Shown here piece by piece: positions 1-25,331 of a DNA stretch of 31,666 nt. How positions within the stretch are numbered: position 1 is the stretch's first letter; every line of letters starts with the position of its first letter. The position numbers and the translations under genes were made by a program. Under the pieces are notes generated by a model. That model ran no database searches. It worked only from the letters and a program-made list of their open reading frames with translations, and was not told where the DNA came from. Origin of the DNA: a virus; the IMG/VR virus record IMGVR_UViG_3300029624_000082, positions 1 to 31,666 of that record. One strand, given 5' to 3'.

Positions 1-210
1 CAGCTCAGCCCACACTCGCGCGCGCCAGACGTAGTACGGCTCGCCCTCGCGGTGGTGCCATCCCTCGGAGGTCTGCACCCCTCCACCCAGCGGGCCGTAC
101 TCGGCGAGTAGCAGCTCTGCGGTCTCCGGGTCGGCGCTGACCACCGTGACGGTCTCGCCGTCCGAAGACAGCTCGAGCTGTCCGTGCTGCGACCGGATGC
201 GATCACCCAT
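1..210 (-). CDS. Hypothetical protein, partial (runs off the left edge)
   Basis: Only the first 70 codons are in the window; the frame stays open to base 1, so the C-terminus is missing. The ATG at 210 overlaps the stop of the upstream winged-helix gene in an 8-base ATGGGTGA arrangement, which implies translational coupling and fixes the start. The visible protein starts MGDRIRSQHGQLELS and has a short beta-rich stretch (VTVVSADPETAELLL), a glycine-rich turn and a WHHREGEPYYVWRARE segment rich in aromatic residues. I do not recognise the family. It is the last visible gene of the long leftward early operon. Confidence 0.6.
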   Translation of the reverse strand, partial: MGDRIRSQHGQLELSSDGETVTVVSADPETAELLLAEYGPLGGGVQTSEGWHHREGEPYYVWRARVWAEL

Positions 211-487
211 GGTCGGCCTCGGGCTCGGCCTCGGGCTCGGGCTCGGTCTCGACCTCGGCCAGCCTCCACTGATATCCCGGGCGGCCTCGGCGGCCGGGCT
301 GGCGCTCGAGGGAGCGCTTCACCAGGCCGCGTCGCAGCAGCGACCGCAGAGCGCTGCGCGCACTCCCTCGAGTGATGCTCAGCGCCTGAGTGATCTCGAC
401 CACAGTGATCGTCTCCTGCTCCTCTTCTCGCAGCAGATGCAAGATCTGCCGCTGCACATGGCCCATTCTCATCTCGGGTTCTTTCAC
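203..487 (-). CDS. Small winged-helix DNA-binding protein
   Basis: A 94-residue protein. The GTG start at 487 follows an AGGAG six bases upstream that overlaps the stop of the previous gene. Residues about 10-75 read as a winged helix-turn-helix: helix HVQRQILHLLREEE, then VVEITQALSITRGSARSALRSLLRRGLVKR (helix 2, turn, recognition helix), then a wing with GRRGRPGYQW. This is the layout of MarR/ArsR-type and replication-control regulators. The C-terminal tail is an acidic low-complexity run of Glu-Pro/Glu-Ala repeats, seen in DNA as repeated CTCGGG hexamers near 213-260. A role as transcriptional regulator of the early operon, or as an accessory replication protein, is inferred from the fold only. 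Confidence 0.65.
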   Translation of the reverse strand: MKEPEMRMGHVQRQILHLLREEEQETITVVEITQALSITRGSARSALRSLLRRGLVKRSLERQPGRRGRPGYQWRLAEVETEPEPEAEPEADHG

Positions 488-496
488 GTTTTACTC

Positions 497-754
497 CTAT
501 TCTGCCGAATCGTAGTACGTCGGAAGAGATCCGGCAACTGGAGGATCGATCTCATCGAGCTGGACCCCATACGCGGCGTCGACGGCCCATCGGAATCCAT
601 CCCACGTCGTTCCGGCGTAGAGAGACAGAGCCTCGGTCTCTGCCACTCTCCAAACTTGCCAGTATGTCCGGCCGTCGAGCCGCGAATGGTACACAGCGAC
701 CAGCTCACCCCGGTCCACGATCGAGACGGCGTTGCTCGAAATAGTCACTTCCAT
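497..754 (-). CDS. Hypothetical protein, 85 residues
   Basis: The frame is open far upstream, but the ATG at 754 is chosen because a GGAGG lies about five bases before it and the upstream residues are Arg/Cys-rich and unlike a real protein. The product begins MEVTISSNAVSIVDRG and reads as a small beta-rich domain: alternating strands, the segment YWQVWRVAE, and an acidic C-terminus. No catalytic motif or membrane segment is visible and I do not recognise the family. It lies 70 bases after the helicase stop, so it is probably in the same transcript but not coupled to the helicase. Confidence 0.6.
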   Translation of the reverse strand: MEVTISSNAVSIVDRGELVAVYHSRLDGRTYWQVWRVAETEALSLYAGTTWDGFRWAVDAAYGVQLDEIDPPVAGSLPTYYDSAE

Positions 755-2258: not shown

Positions 2259-2574
2259 CAGCGTCCTCTCGAGCAGCGCGGGCAATGCGCGCCCACTTGC
2301 ACTGCGGCGTGCAGTCCGACGGCGGCGTGCCAGATGTGCGGCCGGCGAACTCGAGGCCGAGCCGGAATCCCTCGAGTCGCGCCTGCCACACCTCGGGGCT
2401 GTCTGGCAGGCGCGCGATCCATCGATCGTACGCATCCCACTGCGCGCGTCGCTCGTGGGCGATCTCGAGCAGATGTCGGGTCGCGCAATCGCGCCGTCGC
2501 TGCTCCTCCATCGCCAGTCGATCCCAATACTCGGCGCGGAGCGTCGCGAGCTCTGCCTCGATCTCGTCGCTCAT
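2251..2574 (-). CDS. Hypothetical helical protein, 107 residues
   Basis: The start is the ATG at 2574, overlapping the stop of the FGE-fold gene as ATGA; its own stop overlaps the helicase GTG. An open frame extends upstream to about 3003 but this is the antisense-like shadow of the repetitive gene. The protein starts MSDEIEAELATLRAEYWDRL, strongly helical and probably a short coiled coil, and continues through WDAYDRWIARLPDSPEVWQARL. It has two Cys near the C-terminus (DCTPQCKW) but no second pair for a zinc site. Family unknown; tight coupling to the helicase suggests a replication accessory role. Confidence 0.7.
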   Translation of the reverse strand: MSDEIEAELATLRAEYWDRLAMEEQRRRDCATRHLLEIAHERRAQWDAYDRWIARLPDSPEVWQARLEGFRLGLEFAGRTSGTPPSDCTPQCKWARIARAAREDAGG

Positions 2575-3704
2575 ACGGTATCCCGGTCGTCGGGATCGAC
2601 GACGAGGCGGAGGCCGAGGATGAGGTCGCGGTCGCCGGGTTCGTCGTGGAGCCGATACGCCGCCCGCACGCTGCGAGCGTGGCTGCCCCAGGCGCCGCCA
2701 CGGATCACCCGAAGCCGGTCGCCCTCGTCCGACCCCTCCTCGATGGGATCGACGGCGACGCGGAACCCGATGCTGTCGTGGCGGCCGCCGGGGTCGATGC
2801 GGTTCCGAAACGCCGCCCGCGCGTTGCGAGCGTGGCCGTCCCAGAAGCCGCCACGGATCACCCGACCACCCCCGTCCTCGTCCTCGTCCGACCCCTCCTC
2901 GATGGGATCGACGGCGATGCGGAGGCCGATGTCGTCGTCGAGGTAGCCGGGGACGCTGCGGCCCCGAGCAGCCGCCCGCACGTTGCGAGCGCGGTCGTCC
3001 CACGAGCCGCCACGGATCAACCGATGCCGGCCGTCCGACTCCTCGGCGGGCTCAGGCTCGTATCTGCTCCACGCGTCTTGGCACCACTCCCATACGTTCC
3101 CGAGCATGTCGTACAGGCCCCACGGGTTGGGGGCCAGCCGCCCCACGGGCTGGGTCTGCCGCTCGGAGTTGTCCGCGTACCAGGCGATTTCGCCGAGGTC
3201 GCCGTCCTCGTTGGCGAGCCAGTGCGGGCCGGTGGTGCCTGCCCTACACGCGTACTCCCATTCTGCCTCGGTCGGCAGGCGCGCGGCGAGATTCGGGCAG
3301 TGCTGTCCGAGCGCTGCACAGAAGGCCTGCGCCTCGTCCCACGAGACGCACTCGACAGGGCGCGTGGGGCCCTCGAAGAAGCTGGGGGTCTCGCCAGTGA
3401 CCGCCTTCCACAGCGCCTGGGTCACCGGCGTGTCGCCTAGCCAGAAGCCGCGCGAGATGAAGACAGGGTGCTGCGGGCCCTCGTCTGCCCAGCGATCGGC
3501 CTCGTCCTCCGGTGAACCTCGGAGGTAGGTGCCGGGCTGGATCCAGCGCAGGCGCTGGCGGACCCCGCCCACCTCGAGCTCGCCCCACAGCCCGCAGGCG
3601 TCGATGCCGGCGTCGACAAGGCCCAGCTCGGGGAGTAGCATCCGCGCCGCCCGGGGCTCCTCGGCCAGCAGGGCGTCCATAAGGATTTCGATCAGGGGGT
3701 TCAT
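2571..3704 (-). CDS. FGE-sulfatase (SUMF1)-fold protein with three tandem variable C-terminal modules
   Basis: A 377-residue protein; ATG at 3704 follows GAGGAG and overlaps the previous stop (ATGA). Residues 50-215 carry the SUMF1/FGE signature in order: PGTYLRGSP, HPVFISRGFWLG, TPVTQALWKAV, VSWDEAQAFC, RLPTEAEWEYACRAGT and NPWGLYDMLGNVWEWCQD. The closing module R(L/V)IRGGxW...ARxxRAA.R...PG...GxR, normally present once, occurs three times (residues 228-280, 281-331, 332-377). The Cys pair of catalytic formylglycine-generating enzymes after RGGSW is absent, so it is probably a ligand-binding, C-type-lectin-like protein rather than an enzyme. The variable positions of the modules use NNC/NNT codons, as in targets of diversity-generating retroelements. 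No signal peptide or membrane segment. Its place among replication genes is odd for a receptor-binding protein. Confidence 0.85.
   Translation of the reverse strand: MNPLIEILMDALLAEEPRAARMLLPELGLVDAGIDACGLWGELEVGGVRQRLRWIQPGTYLRGSPEDEADRWADEGPQHPVFISRGFWLGDTPVTQALWKAVTGETPSFFEGPTRPVECVSWDEAQAFCAALGQHCPNLAARLPTEAEWEYACRAGTTGPHWLANEDGDLGEIAWYADNSERQTQPVGRLAPNPWGLYDMLGNVWEWCQDAWSRYEPEPAEESDGRHRLIRGGSWDDRARNVRAAARGRSVPGYLDDDIGLRIAVDPIEEGSDEDEDGGGRVIRGGFWDGHARNARAAFRNRIDPGGRHDSIGFRVAVDPIEEGSDEGDRLRVIRGGAWGSHARSVRAAYRLHDEPGDRDLILGLRLVVDPDDRDTV
2574..3023 (-). repeat. Three tandem ~150-bp coding repeats (FGE variable modules)
   Basis: Modules at 2865-3023, 2712-2864 and 2574-2711 encode the three C-terminal units of the FGE-fold protein. 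Scaffold codons (CGT GGC GGC, TGG, GCT CGC, CGG GCG, CCC GGC) are almost identical between copies, and a perfect 36-bp direct repeat lies at 2723-2758 and 2882-2917 in the linker. Between these, about 14 codons differ sharply, mostly in the first two bases only. Confidence 0.85.
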
Positions 3705-4414
3705 GGGGTCTCCTCGGGGCGTCGTGGATCGGCAGCGAGGGCCGCACAGACCGCTCGTGCCAGGGCGAGGCGATCGGCGTCGGTGGTCGTCCCTCGGAGG
3801 TCGGCCCTGCGGAGGTCGGCCCCTTGGAGGTCAGCCCCTCGAAGGTCGGCCAGGGAGAGGTCGGCCCGGTAGAGGCTGGCCCCCCGGAGGTAGGCCCCTC
3901 GGAGGTCGGCCCCTCGGAGGTCGGCCCAGCGCAGGTAAGCGCCGCGGAGGTCGGCCCGAAAGAGGTTGGCCCGGGACAGGTCGGCCCCTCGGAGGTCAGC
4001 CCCTCGGAGATCGGCCGCGGCGAGGTTGGACCCTTGGAGATCGGCCGCGGCGAGGTTGGCCTCTCGGAGGTCGGACCTGCGGAGGACGGCCCGGGAGAGG
4101 TCGGCGCCGCGGAGGACGGCCCGGGAGAGGTCGGCCCTGCGGAAGTTGGCCTCTCGGAGGTCGGCCCCTAGGAGGTCGGCACCGCGAAGGCAGACGCCGA
4201 CCATCGACCACATATAGAGAAGGCCCTCAGCAGCTAGCCAACCGAAGAACCGTCGGAAATCGGGGCTGAACACCAACCCGAAGAGCTGGGCGTCTCGGCT
4301 CCATGTCGGGAAGACCAGGGCGCCATTCCCGTCGGCCGCCCGGTCGAACGCGGCGAGCCCCTCGGAACAGGGGTCGCAGTACATGATGTCGTCCCGGTGA
4401 ATCGCGATCTTCAT
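3701..4414 (-). CDS. Pentapeptide-repeat protein (26 consecutive repeats)
   Basis: A 237-residue protein; the ATG at 4414 follows GGAGG and overlaps the preceding stop as ATGA. The first 75 residues (MKIAIHRDDIMYCDPCSEGL onward) are a non-repeat domain with aromatic-rich segments and a CxxC. From about residue 77 to 208 there are some 26 uninterrupted A(D/N/V/Y)Lxx pentapeptides, enough for about six and a half turns of a right-handed quadrilateral beta-helix. Known members such as Qnr and MfpA mimic DNA and bind gyrase, but many have no assigned role, so the function here is open. The repeat DNA has a 15-base period (about 3790-4190). The C-terminus ends in a short helix. Confidence 0.9.
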   Translation of the reverse strand: MKIAIHRDDIMYCDPCSEGLAAFDRAADGNGALVFPTWSRDAQLFGLVFSPDFRRFFGWLAAEGLLYMWSMVGVCLRGADLLGADLREANFRRADLSRAVLRGADLSRAVLRRSDLREANLAAADLQGSNLAAADLRGADLRGADLSRANLFRADLRGAYLRWADLRGADLRGAYLRGASLYRADLSLADLRGADLQGADLRRADLRGTTTDADRLALARAVCAALAADPRRPEETP

Positions 4415-5061
4415 TGGGTCCTCCGGTGCCAATGGGGCACATCGATCCGTCGCTCGGCCAGCAGTCGTTCCTGGGGTAGCCACCAGCGCAGTCGGTGCTG
4501 GCGACCCCAGGCCAGCGACTCCCCGAGACTGCCCTCGCGGTAGGGAGAGGGGTCGGTGCGCTCCAGCGCCCAATCCCGGAGCGGGTGGTCGACTCGCCGT
4601 GGGTCCAGCGGCGTCACCTGGTACTCGACCCGCTCGCCGAGCTGGGAGAGGTGCCGTTCCCGGGCCTTGGGGGTGGCCTGGTCGCGGGCGGCAACGGCCT
4701 GGGCGGTCCAGTTGATCGCTGCGAGCAGGTTGTTGTAGGCGGCTTCGGTCCCGTCGACCGAGGCGGCGACCCTGGCGGCGTGGACTGCGGCCCAGATGGC
4801 AGTCCGGCTGCCGCGGTCGTACGCGTCGGCGTAGACGGCGGCGTCGGCCGCATCGTTGCTCACGGCAAGCAGGCGAGAGGTCGATACCGTCACGCCCTGG
4901 GCCCACAGCCAGAGCAGTCGCAAGGCAGTCCGGCCCTCAGTGGGCATAATCCTCCACGCCGTACCAGCGCAGATGCTAGCACACCATGCGGCACCGGGGT
5001 GGTCCGCGGAAGCGAGCGCCCGGAGCGTGAAGCGGGGGTAGCTGTAGGCGTCAGTGGTCAT
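4411..5061 (-). CDS. Hypothetical helical protein (weakly Imm-5-like)
   Basis: A 216-residue protein. ATG at 5061 overlaps the exonuclease stop (ATGA). Residues 20-140 are Ala-rich helices with a regular pattern: WCASICAGTAWRIMP, then TALRLLWLWAQG, then AADAAVYADAYDRGSRTAIWAAVHAA. The spacing (P...AL...W..G, then repeated AA helices) recalls a family annotated as putative immunity protein (Imm-5-like), but I judge this by eye and it is weak. The C-terminal 70 residues are rich in Trp and Arg (WGRQHRLRWWLPQERLLAERR). It sits directly before the pentapeptide-repeat gene with a coupled start, so the two are likely made together. Confidence 0.65.
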   Translation of the reverse strand: MTTDAYSYPRFTLRALASADHPGAAWCASICAGTAWRIMPTEGRTALRLLWLWAQGVTVSTSRLLAVSNDAADAAVYADAYDRGSRTAIWAAVHAARVAASVDGTEAAYNNLLAAINWTAQAVAARDQATPKARERHLSQLGERVEYQVTPLDPRRVDHPLRDWALERTDPSPYREGSLGESLAWGRQHRLRWWLPQERLLAERRIDVPHWHRRTQ

Positions 5062-15554: not shown

Positions 15555-16091
15555 ATGGCTGTATCCGGATTCGTCAAGACCAATACCTGCGGACAGATCG
15601 AGCTGGCCGATGGCACGGGTACCCCCGTCACCCTGACGCTGGCGTATGACCGAGGCGATCTCTCGCTGTCTGGGGTCGCTCCAGTCCTCAACGAGCGCGT
15701 GGCCATCGAGCGGCGCGGCAAATTCATCAACCTCGCACACGGCGCCCGATCCTATCCGACGGTCTCGTTCTCGTGCTGGTTCACCGAGTTCGGCGACTCC
15801 GGTACGGCGCCCGGCAACATTCTCACGTTCCTGCAGCGCACGACCGGCTCGGCGTACGAGGACAACGAGTCGACGCTCGGGAGTGGCGCGAAGGTGCCCT
15901 ATACCGTCGACATCACGTACACCATCGAGGGCACGGATTGGGGCGACAGCTCCGACCACACCTTTACGCTGCACGATGTGGACTTCTCGATCGACTCCTT
16001 CACGGAGGCCGCCGAGGGCTGCTCGATCGCGCTCACGGGTACGATCTACGGCGAGATCGATGGTGACCTCGAGATGGACGAGATCGCATGA
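15555..16091 (+). CDS. Major tail tube protein
   Basis: A 178-residue, beta-rich protein placed directly before the tail chaperone. Strands include TPVTLTLAYDRGDLSLSG, GARSYPTVSFSCWFTEFG, KVPYTVDITYTIEG and CSIALTGTIYGEIDGD, the pattern of a tube-forming beta sandwich. The ATG lies two bases after the preceding stop. The stop (TGA at 16089-16091) is followed at once by the parS-like palindromes. The assignment rests on size, composition and order. Confidence 0.75.
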   Translation: MAVSGFVKTNTCGQIELADGTGTPVTLTLAYDRGDLSLSGVAPVLNERVAIERRGKFINLAHGARSYPTVSFSCWFTEFGDSGTAPGNILTFLQRTTGSAYEDNESTLGSGAKVPYTVDITYTIEGTDWGDSSDHTFTLHDVDFSIDSFTEAAEGCSIALTGTIYGEIDGDLEMDEIA

Positions 16092-16094
16092 TCA

Positions 16095-16126
16095 TGTTCC
16101 ACGTGGAACAGTGTTCCACGTGGAAC
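16095..16126. promoter_or_regulatory. parS-like palindrome pair
   Basis: TGTTCCACGTGGAACA (16095-16110, perfect 16-bp palindrome) and GTTCCACGTGGAAC (16113-16126, 14 bp) lie between the tail tube stop and the AAGGAG (16128-16133) of the tail chaperone. The bacterial parS consensus is TGTTTCACGTGAAACA, so each half-site differs at one base. In RNA each could form GUUCC/GGAAC around ACGU. Confidence 0.7.
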
Positions 16127-16138
16127 CAAGGAGAGGGA

Positions 16139-16525
16139 ATGGAAGATCGAACGCTGCTCGGACGGCCCGTAGACCTGGTCACGCCCGCCAGCCTGTCAGA
16201 TCGATACACGCTCGGCGAGCTGCAGTCGAGCGGGCATGCGATGGTTCGGTGGCAGGGATTCGCGATCGCGATCGCGTGGCCTCGGCTGCGGCGAGCGCTC
16301 GCGAGCAAGGGGATCCACTACCGGGGCGACGCGAGCGCGTACGGAGCGGCCGCGTTCGACTACCTCATTGCCCAGGGCGCGAGCTTTCAGGACGTTGTCG
16401 AGGTCGCTACCGAAGCCGTCGCGAAGGTGCTCGATGACCTTCCCGGCGTCGAGCTCCCCGCGTCTGATACGGAGCTCGATGAAGCCCTGGGAAACTCCGA
16501 GACCGACACGGAGGGCTCGGACTGA
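16139..16525 (+). CDS. Tail assembly chaperone (frame-0 product, gpG-like)
   Basis: A 128-residue protein. ATG at 16139 is preferred over in-frame ATGs at 16088 and 16094 because AAGGAGAGG stands just before it and the earlier start would translate the palindromes. It starts MEDRTLLGRPVDLVTPASLS, has a helical middle (RGDASAYGAAAFDYLIAQGAS) and an acidic end (DTELDEALGNSETDTEGSD). Position between tube and tape measure, acidic C-terminus and the slippery site before its stop identify it as the gpG-type chaperone that coats the tape measure during tail assembly. Confidence 0.8.
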   Translation: MEDRTLLGRPVDLVTPASLSDRYTLGELQSSGHAMVRWQGFAIAIAWPRLRRALASKGIHYRGDASAYGAAAFDYLIAQGASFQDVVEVATEAVAKVLDDLPGVELPASDTELDEALGNSETDTEGSD

Positions 16526-22100: not shown

Positions 22101-22345
22101 TCGGGATGCGCGAGGACGCATACAGCTCGATGACCGGAGCGCTGATCTCGATCCTCGACCAAGGCAGGGTGCCGTGTCTCGTGATCCCGCGCCTGCCCGC
22201 CCTGGGTACCACGATCACAGATCCGTACCTCTGGCTGTACGGGCGCATCACCAGCGAGAGCCACGGGATCACCGGACTGTACGGCGACGAGGGGGACGAC
22301 GAGGTCGTACGCGTCGACGGGCTCTCCTTCGAGGAAATCGCATGA
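19169..22345 (+). CDS. Large tail-tip protein with Asp-box (sialidase-like) repeats
   Basis: A 1058-residue protein, GTG start overlapping the tape measure stop (GTGA). It is beta-rich throughout. Two Asp-box motifs are visible, SSDRGATW near residue 263 and SLDGGASW near residue 363, of the S-x-D-x-G-x-x-W type that marks turns in sialidase-like beta-propellers. Surrounding segments (VWDPESSRMTWLVGAG, DGDGVLYALAMDD) also look like propeller blades over about residues 100-430. The rest (about 430-1058) resembles carbohydrate-binding or fibre-like beta domains. A distal-tail/host-recognition role is inferred from place after the tape measure; catalytic sialidase residues were not identified. 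Confidence 0.7.
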   Translation: MTPGFGIVALDGRLSFDWSTEIGTDGVTYSQAGPGPGHPIRSEASSEWLPFAAGAQTAGVQLRTIRAGYPGRDGASVAARLESETALTDWRGWDEPVLVADAWEVDGAESVGYAQVTRLPDTDELVISTTAGGLTNGEIWVFNPRTEEFRGPYDWSAEEDSAGQPYAAVWDPESSRMTWLVGAGSVAAGDRAGYVAYRADERVFDPANGSLRIMSVGWPSEEITTAAGTPDSLDRLSIAAKRGANWLAFWRVEDQDVTLQMQSSDRGATWQLVESIADSVADQFRVVATDTGFAVAYIDTGASNQARCRLLSTAGALWSEASGVDIVTLGCSHVHVDVDGDGVLYALAMDDTDFCRWLVSRSLDGGASWDQYESSALPDTSEAWPSLLPQVDDICCANGAVYAVVATTPRVGVIRLGGWTNVEHAGRLDRAASRLDRFGWGGLGTGGEAYIRVIDANLLNWDWTFTTSPSDYWTSPTSSLIRTAGWGKVTYQSGGEADSGVSTGFEWGCLEQAGGFSVLLQILMGSNGFRVINGDADGLFATVDSLDLSVTPSISFRVHMEGLGTGNGALCSVWYRVEGADKWTAVFTDETLSSADAEITTTYARFGELATPTRTESYVFEAMTIAQGAWNYGVQNPAAIFEASDDGVRGLSYGKALPADRPYPLPILTAAAEAEPSGGIQGQGYTRATEIVTLPVRYEYGVHNILPTDAPSPRDGWRSTDDSEARFAWDWLDYGDNEAAHNIGEVIGFYVQSANPAVWVVEHNSSGSWETTGTLDLRLGTGLSFVRNGATIRPTAGTVIDRYIHEGELVGGYVSDGSNAARITRNTGGYWNPSGDSKRIRIDVATDGGALAASATETAELVAPGGVVLLALPGIPRRIRFGAAASQVTPYGDYRLGSAGIGRVIGVGADPGWGWRREALLTREISRRADQSMDVRVLGPPRTRLTYEWPDGVIMRDLRSRSAGDYEAVEVPSTGEVIGMREDAYSSMTGALISILDQGRVPCLVIPRLPALGTTITDPYLWLYGRITSESHGITGLYGDEGDDEVVRVDGLSFEEIA

Positions 22346-23874
22346 TCACGGCAGACTGGCTGCTCGACCTCGAGATCGACGGCGCGGTCTACCGGTACGC
22401 GGTCGATGACTGCGTCGTCCTCGACGCAGACGGCATCGAGCTCCGCTACCGCGGTGGTCTCTCCTCTCCGCGAGCTCTCGAGCGAGGTGTCACGACGGTG
22501 GAGCTGTCGGTCCTCGATCGGTCGGTAGACTGGCCGACCCTCGCTCGCAGGCTCCGTCGAGCGACCCTGCGCCGATGGGAGTTCGGGCAGACCATCGAAG
22601 AGGCTGCGGTCTGGACGTCAGGAGAGATTCGCGGCGTCTCGCATGGCGATCAGTTCGACCCCGTCTCGTTCGCGGTCACGTCTCCGTCCGGCGAGGAGTC
22701 GCGCGGGCAGCCCTTCCCGGATCCCTTGGCGCGCCACACCGAGGACACGTGGGGTGCGCTGGCTGCCGTCGATGCGGTCGACCTGGAAGACCTCGGCTCT
22801 CCCTACCCGATCGTGTTTGGCGAGCCGGGCAAAGACGAGACCAACGCTGGCGAGCCTGCGGTGCCGACGTTCTGCTTGTCGCGCAGCGACGATGGCACGT
22901 ACATCTTCGTGAGCGAGGGGCACATCGAGGCGTCGGAGGTGTGGGTCCACGAGCTCGAGCGCTTCGATGCGGTCGACGATCTCACGGTCAGCAAGGGCTT
23001 CGACGACCTGGGCCGGCGGATCACCTACGCGTTTGCCGGTCCTGCTACCGTCACACATTTAGATAACAACGGCGACAAGCACCGGTACTTCCTTGCGTTT
23101 CGAGAGGGCGCCGGGTTGACCGGCAACGCATGGGAGACGATCGAGTACATGCTGTCGCGATGGGCTCGCGGCGCTGTCGATTGGCGAAGGATGCGCCAAG
23201 TGGCTGGAGACCTTGCGCAGTACCAGATCGACAGCTACGTCAGCCAGCCGGTCAAAGATCCGTGGGCCTGGATCTCGAGCTGGGTCCGCGACCTGCCGTA
23301 TGAGGTGCTCCGCGGAGACCGTGGGTTCTATCTGAGGCGTCAGCGCTGGCTGCCGGCGGGCCGGCCCAGTGGAGAGTGGACCGAGGGCCGTGACGCGATC
23401 CGCATCTCCGACCGCTCGCTGCTCGAGGGCGACGTGAATGAGTACTCAGCGCGCTACCGGCCTGGTCAACAGCAGGGGGTGTGGCTGGCTCGACACACGG
23501 TCACGAGCGAAGGCGGCCCCCGCGGTCGCCCAGCCGAGGTCCGGGGCTGGAAGGGGTCGACAGTAGAGGTCGATGGGCGGTGCTCTCGCAGCTACGCCCG
23601 CTACGGATTCGCGCCCGCCAAGACGGTCGACCTAGACTGGACGTGGAGCCAGTCCACCGCGGTCGCCGTGCTCCGAGACCTGGTCGAGCGAGACGCCGTC
23701 GATCGATGGCAGACGACGTACGCGCTGCGGGGAGGATCGCGGCTCGAGCTCGGGGATGAGATCTACATCTCGGATCCCGACCTCGGAGTCGACCAACAAC
23801 TGGCTGTCGTCGGCTCGAGCCCCACGTCCGATCGCACCGACTATGCGACCGTCACGCTGTGGTATGCTGCCTAG
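22342..23874 (+). CDS. Tail tip / baseplate hub-like protein, 510 residues
   Basis: The ATG at 22342 overlaps the preceding stop (ATGA) and follows GAGGAAATCGC; the longer frame upstream is the shadow of the previous gene. Start MITADWLLDLEIDGAVYRYA is a beta-rich first domain. Middle parts include WTSGEIRGVSHGDQFDPVSF, YPIVFGEPGKDE and WARGAVDWRRMRQVAGDLAQ, and the end has RGGSRLELGDEIYISDPDLG and TVTLWYAA. The general layout, two gene lengths behind the tape measure, matches tail tip proteins (Dit/Tal class) but I cannot assign which. No catalytic motif was seen. Confidence 0.65.
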   Translation: MITADWLLDLEIDGAVYRYAVDDCVVLDADGIELRYRGGLSSPRALERGVTTVELSVLDRSVDWPTLARRLRRATLRRWEFGQTIEEAAVWTSGEIRGVSHGDQFDPVSFAVTSPSGEESRGQPFPDPLARHTEDTWGALAAVDAVDLEDLGSPYPIVFGEPGKDETNAGEPAVPTFCLSRSDDGTYIFVSEGHIEASEVWVHELERFDAVDDLTVSKGFDDLGRRITYAFAGPATVTHLDNNGDKHRYFLAFREGAGLTGNAWETIEYMLSRWARGAVDWRRMRQVAGDLAQYQIDSYVSQPVKDPWAWISSWVRDLPYEVLRGDRGFYLRRQRWLPAGRPSGEWTEGRDAIRISDRSLLEGDVNEYSARYRPGQQQGVWLARHTVTSEGGPRGRPAEVRGWKGSTVEVDGRCSRSYARYGFAPAKTVDLDWTWSQSTAVAVLRDLVERDAVDRWQTTYALRGGSRLELGDEIYISDPDLGVDQQLAVVGSSPTSDRTDYATVTLWYAA

Positions 23875-23916
23875 CAGGGACCGGTCGGCGCGGCTAGATT
23901 GGGTCGGGAGGCGCTC

Positions 23917-24213
23917 GTGAGGCGAGCATGGGAGACCATCGGCACCGTGGGTCTGTCCACCCTGATTGCCATCGCCCTCGTGAGCGGCACCGCCGCTATG
24001 GCGGCCGATGCCGACATCGATGCAGGACCATGGATCCCAGACCTGATCGGGTCTCTCGGCCCAAACGGCGCCCTGATCTATCTCATTTGGACAATTGGGC
24101 GATCCAACGGGATCCCGCTGACCGTCAGCGTCCGGATGAGTCCCGAGGACCGCGAAGCGCTAGACCGCATCTACAGGCGGATCACCGTCGTTATGAGACA
24201 CCTGGAAAAGTGA
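23917..24213 (+). CDS. Small membrane protein, holin candidate
   Basis: The GTG at 23917 is preferred over an upstream TTG because GGGAGG lies six bases before it. The product has 98 residues. A hydrophobic stretch at about 10-28 (TVGLSTLIAIALVSGTAAMA) could be a membrane helix or a signal peptide ending AMA-AD. A second hydrophobic segment is at about 45-63 (LIGSLGPNGALIYLIWTIG). A charged helix RMSPEDREALDRIYRRITVVM follows. Two hydrophobic helices and a charged tail fit a class II holin, which would time lysis. No endolysin was recognised beside it, so holin is a candidate only. Confidence 0.5.
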   Translation: MRRAWETIGTVGLSTLIAIALVSGTAAMAADADIDAGPWIPDLIGSLGPNGALIYLIWTIGRSNGIPLTVSVRMSPEDREALDRIYRRITVVMRHLEK

Positions 24214-24223
24214 GAGTTAGACA

Positions 24224-24694
24224 ATGGATCAAGATCTGGAAGTCACGCGCGATGAGGTCGCGGAGATCCTGCGCGAGCTGCTTACCGAGCTCGAGGAGAC
24301 CGTCGACGCCTACGAGGAGCCTGAGGTCAGCTACGATGCCGCGGACGCCGCAGAAGCAGCGATGTCCATCGCTCTCCGCATCGGCTCTGCGCTGGTCCCC
24401 ACGGCTTCGCCGATCGCCGCTGTACTGGCCGCGATCGCAGCTCCGGTCTCGTCGTTTGTGACCGGCCTCGTCGAGCAGGCGCAGGAGCGGTCGCGGACCG
24501 GGGAGCGGCTCGAGGAGCGCATCAGCACGGCATACGCCATGCGAGACGAGGCGCAGGGCAAGATCGACGAGCTGCTCTCGACGCCCCGTCGCGAGTTTGC
24601 CGAGCGGTTCCGCGTCTGGCGTCTCCGCAGACGCGTCCGTGAGCTCAGCCAGAAGATCACCCGACTCGAGGGCTACCGCGAGCCGTCGGAGTGA
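24224..24694 (+). CDS. Hypothetical membrane-associated helical protein
   Basis: A 156-residue protein with ATG at 24224 and weak Shine-Dalgarno. The acidic N-terminal helix (MDQDLEVTRDEVAEILREL) leads to a hydrophobic, Ala-rich stretch at about 50-82 (ALVPTASPIAAVLAAIAAPV), then a long charged coiled coil with Arg-rich end (FRVWRLRRRVRELSQKITRL). The hydrophobic stretch could be one or two membrane passages. It follows the holin-like gene, so a lysis or membrane role is possible, but family unknown. Confidence 0.6.
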   Translation: MDQDLEVTRDEVAEILRELLTELEETVDAYEEPEVSYDAADAAEAAMSIALRIGSALVPTASPIAAVLAAIAAPVSSFVTGLVEQAQERSRTGERLEERISTAYAMRDEAQGKIDELLSTPRREFAERFRVWRLRRRVRELSQKITRLEGYREPSE

Positions 24695-25260
24695 CTCGCG
24701 ATCGGGTCATCCTGCACGACGCGACGGACCGGTCGCTCTCGGTCTGGTGGCGCCTCGGCAATGCGATCGACGGGACGCCGCACCACTACGCGGTGCGCTC
24801 ACCGATGGATGCGCTGAGCCGCATCGAGCTCCACTGCAGCGTATACGGGCCGATCCGCGAGCTGCAGCTGTGGTGCCACGGGAACGCATTCGGCGCCTAC
24901 ATCGATGGCAAGCGGATCCGGACCATCGATCTCATCGCTGCGCTGTCTGGTTGCGTCACGGGGTACCTGTGGCTGCGCGCCTGCGAGGTCGCCGAGTCGC
25001 CGAGACTGATCGAGCGCCTCGCTCGAGAGCTCGACGTGACAGTGGTCGCGCACACAAACCGGATCAGCGCTGAGCCCATCTGGAGACCCCTCCGACATGG
25101 TGGCCTCGTCGCGCTGCGGCCTGGGGAGCGGCCGTTCTGGGACCCCAAACGTGACAGGTACACGCGCGGGCCCAAGAAGGGCAGGCGCCTGCCTGGATGC
25201 TCGGCCCTCAGAATGAGGCCCCCCTCACGGGCCACCGTGGACGGGGGACGCGTGTTCTGA
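24691..25260 (+). CDS. Caspase-hemoglobinase-fold-like protein (HG / AC motifs)
   Basis: A 189-residue protein, GTG start overlapping the previous stop (GTGA). Residues 57-65 LQLWCHGNA give a strand ending in His63-Gly64, and residues 92-101 YLWLRACEVA give a second strand ending in Ala97-Cys98. These two strand-end motifs, 35 residues apart, are the dyad layout of clan CD proteases (caspase/gingipain fold) and of DUF4347; a third strand VTVVAHTNRI follows, as in DUF4347. If active it would cut proteins; a lysis or host-takeover role is possible. The basic C-terminus (KRDRYTRGPKKGRR) is outside the domain. Not verified by search. Confidence 0.55.
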   Translation: MTRDRVILHDATDRSLSVWWRLGNAIDGTPHHYAVRSPMDALSRIELHCSVYGPIRELQLWCHGNAFGAYIDGKRIRTIDLIAALSGCVTGYLWLRACEVAESPRLIERLARELDVTVVAHTNRISAEPIWRPLRHGGLVALRPGERPFWDPKRDRYTRGPKKGRRLPGCSALRMRPPSRATVDGGRVF

Positions 25261-25264
25261 CCAG

Positions 25265-25331
25265 TGTTCCACGTGGAACACGCGTGCTACGTTCCACGTG
25301 GAACCATCACCTTCATGTTCCACGTGGAACA
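25265..25331. promoter_or_regulatory. parS-like palindrome triplet
   Basis: TGTTCCACGTGGAACA at 25265-25280 and 25316-25331, with GTTCCACGTGGAAC at 25291-25304 between them; centres are 25 and 26 bases apart. The last palindrome overlaps the first base of AAGGAG (25331-25336), the Shine-Dalgarno of the next gene. The gap from 25261 to 25342 holds nothing else. Same sequence and same relation to the Shine-Dalgarno as the pair near 16100. Confidence 0.7.

Follow-up and report, generated by a model that had tools for sequence, protein, structure and literature searches.

The window analysed here is a whole IMG/VR record of 31,666 bases. Its late region carries, on the plus strand, a gene (24691-25260) that the open reading frame, codon use, homologs and an AF2 model together point to as encoding a putative caspase-fold protein of the DUF4347 superfamily. 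ORF analysis gave a product of 189 amino acids and a GTG start that shares bases with the TGA ending the preceding ORF (24224-24694). The codon score was positive for this frame only among the frames compared, and the G+C content of its codon positions (0.66/0.54/0.84) is as in other late genes. No signal or membrane segment was predicted in the protein. The upstream ORF (24224-24694, plus strand) encodes one hydrophobic segment followed by a charged, helical C-terminal part, and had only a weak PHROG match. Before it lies a gene for a holin-like small membrane protein (23899-24213, plus strand), called from hydropathy and with no family match, whose product resembles by eye a sister-phage protein at a similar position (L092 5264-5623). 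The gene at 22336-23874 (plus strand) is a late structural, probably tail, gene that anchors the synteny to the sister phages L090 and L092 (tblastn E values of 5.5e-10 and 1.2e-5); a search for relatives of this tail protein in IMG/VR found none. The original prediction had placed the caspase-like gene in a late operon, beside holin-like and membrane proteins and just before a parS-like cluster. Predicted membrane segments in both upstream products (23899-24213 and 24224-24694) bear out the first part, and three exact copies of a parS-like palindrome, TTCCACGTGGAA, directly downstream (25267-25329) bear out the second.

The same palindrome occurs five times in the window, in two clusters, and none is expected in shuffles. 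The cluster at 25267-25329 sits between two late genes, and the two remaining copies (16097-16125) lie inside the start of the ORF at 16088-16525. Near the other end of the window, on the minus strand, are genes for an FGE-sulfatase-domain protein (2571-3704; E of 7.4e-59) and a pentapeptide-repeat protein (3704-4906), the latter with a best Pfam E value of 2.2e-43 when the ORFs of the window were scanned. The C-terminal part of the former repeats about three times (RVIRGGxWDxxARNxRAAxR...), recalling the variable proteins of diversity-generating retroelements.

Sister phages were traced through the terminase (39% identity). One of them, contig 299 of the bacterial genome bin G149 (31,753 b; L092/L093), has terL split over both ends and carries homologous terL, portal, capsid and tail genes; it looks like a complete circular phage and contains an integrase-like ORF (L092 6893-8071). 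The gene that follows the holin-like gene in this contig encodes a DUF5675 protein (E of 5.6e-17). In the sister phage L090, the gene in a lysis-like position (178-720, minus strand) encodes a protein that looks by eye to be of the L,D-transpeptidase type (H...EGC) and has no Pfam match. A convincing match to the caspase-fold family was found in none of the sister-phage genomes G090, G159, G149, G174 and G104, and G005 gave a weak match only (E of 0.049). In the window itself, no endolysin family of Pfam was matched by the likely genes or by nearly all other ORFs of at least 90 amino acids.

Three segments of the 189-residue protein make up its proposed active site. Predicted strand 3 ends in IRELQLWCHG (residues 55-64; 24853-24882, plus strand), which contains Gln59, Trp61, the proposed catalytic His63 and Gly64. 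Predicted strand 4 ends in YLWLRAC (residues 92-98; 24964-24984, plus strand), with Trp94, Arg96 and the proposed nucleophile Cys98; predicted strand 5 is VTVVAHT (residues 116-122; 25036-25056, plus strand), with an invariant His121 and a nearly invariant Thr122. The assignment of all three combines conservation with model strands at residues 55-65, 89-97 and 117-121, respectively. The strand-end motifs first read from the letters were all found where they had been claimed: His63-Gly64 at bases 24877-24882, Ala97-Cys98 at 24979-24984, 35 residues between the His and the Cys, and the VTVVAH strand at residues 116-121. The HG/C motif by itself is weak evidence: when the residues were shuffled 20,000 times, an equally loose layout of a hydrophobic strand with HG followed by a hydrophobic strand with C appeared in 206 cases (about 1%). 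The motif rises above chance because phage and bacterial-chromosome homologs conserve it. Across these homologs, Gln59, Trp61, Trp94, Arg96, Cys98 and His121 are invariant and His63 and Gly64 nearly so, giving the family signature Q-x-W-x-H-G ... W-x-R-x-C ... [AG]HT. W-x-R-x-C is present in all 47 family sequences and the His in 46 (41 scored directly by a regular expression and five, L015, L020, L032, L059 and L062, read from alignments), with P0004 as the exception. The window protein retains Gln59, Trp61, His63, Gly64, Trp94, Arg96, Cys98, His121, Thr122, Gly138, Leu139 and Pro144; in the alignment it lacks the Gly in the helix that follows the Cys and has HGGL instead of the usual Q[SG]GL. 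Since Gln59, Trp61 and His63 alternate along strand 3, as Trp94, Arg96 and Cys98 do along strand 4, these residues would share one face. Two positions ahead of the Cys, caspases carry a Gln, which lines their S1 pocket, and metacaspases an Asp. The invariant Arg96 occupies this position in the family and, by analogy, suggests that acidic residues are favored at the cleavage site.

Searches with the window protein alone had no match in Pfam (E ≤ 10), PHROGs, PADLOC (up to an E of 5), the PDB or plasmid records. The sole match among phage records, the replicative helicase of Burkholderia phage KS9 (tblastn E of 0.2), was rejected as chance. Its family emerged stepwise. The first relative (L002) came from the Deltaproteobacteria MAG HyVt-553, with 31% identity and an E value of 3e-10 among candidate stretches, and the pair formed by this protein and the window protein then retrieved a relative from a 43.7-kb viral contig (L003; E of 2e-5, and 4e-12 with a profile). 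Family members are present in at least 16 IMG/VR viral contigs besides the window, seven of which are 168-190 kb long, and as standalone genes in the chromosomes of 42 of 379 genomes of the phylum of HyVt-553 (about one in nine). Named relatives, among them P0003, P0005, P0002, L055-L066 and L076, are of the same length class as the window protein, which is 20-33% identical to its phage and bacterial relatives. Searches of 50,697 phage records with P0002 and P0003 and of PHROGs with P0002-P0004 gave no match, and profile searches of PDB sequences with the family returned chance hits only. In a tree of the family, thirty copies from chromosomes cluster together (99/99), to the exclusion of the phage copies and P0004. 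The partner of the window protein in this tree is P0004 (98/88), its closest relative (L002 3269-3853), which has DE in place of HG. As the branches of both are very long, the exact position of the window protein is unsure. HyVt-553, the MAG of P0004, carries a second family copy, L006, that keeps the His-Gly; the two could be an active/inactive pair.

The gene neighborhoods of the family are varied. In the phage contig L059, the family gene comes shortly after a Glyco_hydro_19 gene, and a Peptidase_C39 gene overlaps both of them. Elsewhere, phage copies are found in the company of genes for primase, RecA-like, ERF, methylase, dUTPase, thioredoxin and Clp protease proteins, and ten chromosomal loci had no shared neighbors. 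In large phages (L008, L057 and L058), the family gene and a conserved gene pair (L008 6559-7388, minus strand) are convergently oriented. The first protein of the pair has an N-terminal membrane segment and a charged helical part, the second an N-terminal signal-like segment and a C-terminal membrane segment; this anatomy is spanin-like, and neither had a Pfam match above cutoff.

The motifs had also been said to match DUF4347, a claim that holds as kinship through intermediates and fails as a direct match of the window protein. The Pfam DUF4347 model was matched by 27 of 34 aligned family members (E ≤ 0.1; best 2.5e-10), and several chromosomal members scored above the curated cutoff of PF14252 (24.6 bits), as P0003 did with 27.8 bits; the window protein stayed below it. 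An hhalign comparison of the family with a canonical DUF4347 alignment of nine domains gave an E value of 1.2e-5 (probability 81%), and a very similar one (1.4e-5, 80%) with the window protein placed first; it put CHG on SHG and RAC on YGC. Compared without its relatives, the window protein gave an E value of 0.13, which is not significant. The two groups share a His-Gly that ends one strand and a Cys that ends the next, and are aligned by profile comparison. Canonical DUF4347 domains occur in large repeat proteins, and the copies found here are in open frames of 710-3120 amino acids, whereas the window protein is small and standalone. It also has L-R-A-C, and thus R-x-C, where the canonical motif is Y-G-C, and extra invariant W, R and AHT positions. 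Because only its relatives pass the cutoff, we file the window protein as a divergent member of the superfamily, as judged from sequence profiles and reached through intermediates, and not as DUF4347 itself.

Structure prediction supported the caspase-fold reading. A single-sequence AF2 model was discarded (pLDDT 33.5), and a model built with a 17-sequence alignment reached a pLDDT of 80 and a pTM of 0.79, with uncertainty over the last 25-30 residues. Its predicted elements are a strand (residues 5-10), a helix (14-27), a strand (31-35), a helix (38-52), a strand with His63 (55-65), a hairpin (68-71), a helix (78-85), a strand followed directly by Cys98 (89-97), a helix (104-114) and two strands (117-121 and 139-142). 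The resulting order, b-a-b-a-b3(H)-hairpin-a-b4(C)-a-b5-b6, is caspase-like. Among PDB structures, Foldseek placed caspase-7 first (E of 0.017, probability 0.99), and the best of many caspase matches were caspase-7, caspase-3 and drICE (E of 0.017 to 0.1; TM of 0.32-0.45). No PDB match fell below an E of 0.001, and some PLP enzymes, dehydrogenases and Rossmann-like structures had E values near those of the caspases. A giant-virus caspase-domain protein came third in BFVD (E of 4.9e-3), after two proteins with no informative name. The expectation that structure prediction would recover a clan CD arrangement is supported by the model, in which His63 ends strand 3, Cys98 comes just after strand 4 and caspases head the PDB matches. 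Judged by predicted secondary structure and Foldseek scores, the opposite outcome, a fold in which the His/Cys pair does not face one pocket, did not appear: the model has both residues where strands 3 and 4 terminate on their C-terminal side. The likeness to caspases (C14) and viral caspase-domain proteins consists of the predicted topology, the positions of the His and Cys and the top fold matches; unlike them, the window protein has no sequence similarity and no QACRG motif (LRACE in its place), and the TM scores (0.32-0.45) are modest. On the strength of the model, the caspase-fold call is good but not beyond doubt.

Foldseek also retrieved chain 9qpe_G of a DUF4347 protein, Tce1. The protein PA0256 contains a DUF4347 domain (PMC8262886) and is Tce1, whose C-terminal domain has been solved by cryo-EM and whose His186 and Cys240 align with the dyad of the cysteine protease domain of TcdB, a clan CD toxin protease (PMC13323088). 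The Tce1 chain was also the best PDB match of the canonical DUF4347 profile (E of 0.0097). Given this structure and domain, a caspase-like structure bearing the same dyad has been solved for one member of the superfamily. Tce1 and Tce2 are linked to the window protein by the DUF4347 domain of Tce1 and by a solved fold with a His/Cys dyad. They differ from it in being type VI secretion effectors with His-Cys spacings of 54 and 50 residues, compared with 35, and have no sequence match to it. An active-site change in Tce2, C115S, relieves toxicity, and Tce1 showed no measurable toxicity in tests (PMC13323088). A dyad of this superfamily therefore does not prove activity, for which a single mutant of a relative, that of Tce2, would be the backing.

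Taken together, the data lead us to favor, with moderate confidence, a cysteine endopeptidase of clan CD fold that uses His63 and Cys98, acts late in the cytoplasm and cuts host or phage proteins toward take-over or lysis. The catalytic dyad of this small, soluble protein would comprise His63, which ends strand 3, and Cys98, which ends strand 4. Its gene would be expressed late as part of the structural/lysis operon, in coupling with the preceding membrane-protein gene. The most likely site of action would be the cytoplasm as infection ends; cleavage there of a single host (or phage) protein, or of a few, could help take-over or lysis. We infer both catalysis by the His63/Cys98 pair and the late cytoplasmic role. 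A lysis-time role is suggested by the adjoining holin-like gene, the lack of a recognizable endolysin and the DUF5675 gene that fills this slot in a sister phage.

Other readings have to be weighed against this endopeptidase. The protein could belong to the lysis module itself, as an unusual endolysin or accessory protease that helps to break the envelope with the holin-like protein and takes the place of a different putative lysis protein of sister phages. The order of holin-like, membrane-protein and caspase-fold genes, the DUF5675 gene after the holin-like gene of the G149 phage, the scan of window ORFs without a Pfam endolysin and the overlapping Peptidase_C39 and Glyco_hydro_19 genes in L059 all favor it. 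We nonetheless consider it unlikely. We know of no clan CD endolysin, and a literature search found none; the protein matched no known lytic-enzyme family in Pfam or PHROGs, the window is possibly incomplete, and an endolysin may have diverged too far for Pfam to recognize it. Outside the window, family genes have DNA-metabolism and other genes around them, and the chromosomal copies have no conserved neighbors. A role in lysis is therefore possible for the window phage and is not a property of the whole family. The broader proposal that the phage caspase-fold family acts in lysis, replacing the endolysin or being obligatory beside the holin, with an acidic preference set by the Arg, is improbable.

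A counter-defence or host-shut-off protease that came from a bacterial family and destroys a particular host protein is a tentative alternative, to which we give clearly less than even weight. It is favored by a family common to phages and chromosomes, by the many phage copies in DNA-metabolism regions and by the very fast divergence of the window copy, and the DUF4347 relatives include secretion-system effectors (PMC8262886; PMC13323088). The late-operon position in the window phage and the lack of a match to a PADLOC defence family speak against it, and the separation of the chromosomal clade from the phage copies (99/99) does not support a recent transfer. The pairing of the window protein with the HG-less P0004 on a long branch makes decay or a changed function possible, and the protein could be a pseudo-protease that retains the fold and acts as a binding module or regulator. 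This reading, also fed by conserved positions that are lost elsewhere (for instance, the Gly in the helix that follows the Cys), is doubtful, as the window protein retains every strongly conserved residue of the site. Lastly, an unrelated alpha/beta (Rossmann-like) protein could carry HG and C by coincidence, given the frequency of the motif in shuffles and the Rossmann-like and PLP-enzyme structures that score near the caspases. Such a chance resemblance is very improbable: it is contradicted by the conservation across the family, the DUF4347 matches that pass the cutoff, the profile-profile alignment and the topology of the model.

Discussion of caspase-like proteases mostly concerns their part as death or defence effectors of bacteria, and the original prediction, too, described caspase-fold proteases as known mostly in defence systems. 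The family described here is not confined there, with no PADLOC match and with members in many chromosomes and, besides the window, in 16 or more viral contigs. The finding ties a scarcely studied domain, DUF4347, to phages and delineates a compact, standalone family of predicted caspase fold with its own signature in 17 or more uncultured viral contigs as well as in bacterial chromosomes. With one conserved Cys and one His, the phage version would offer a small, testable system for the viral use of the caspase fold.
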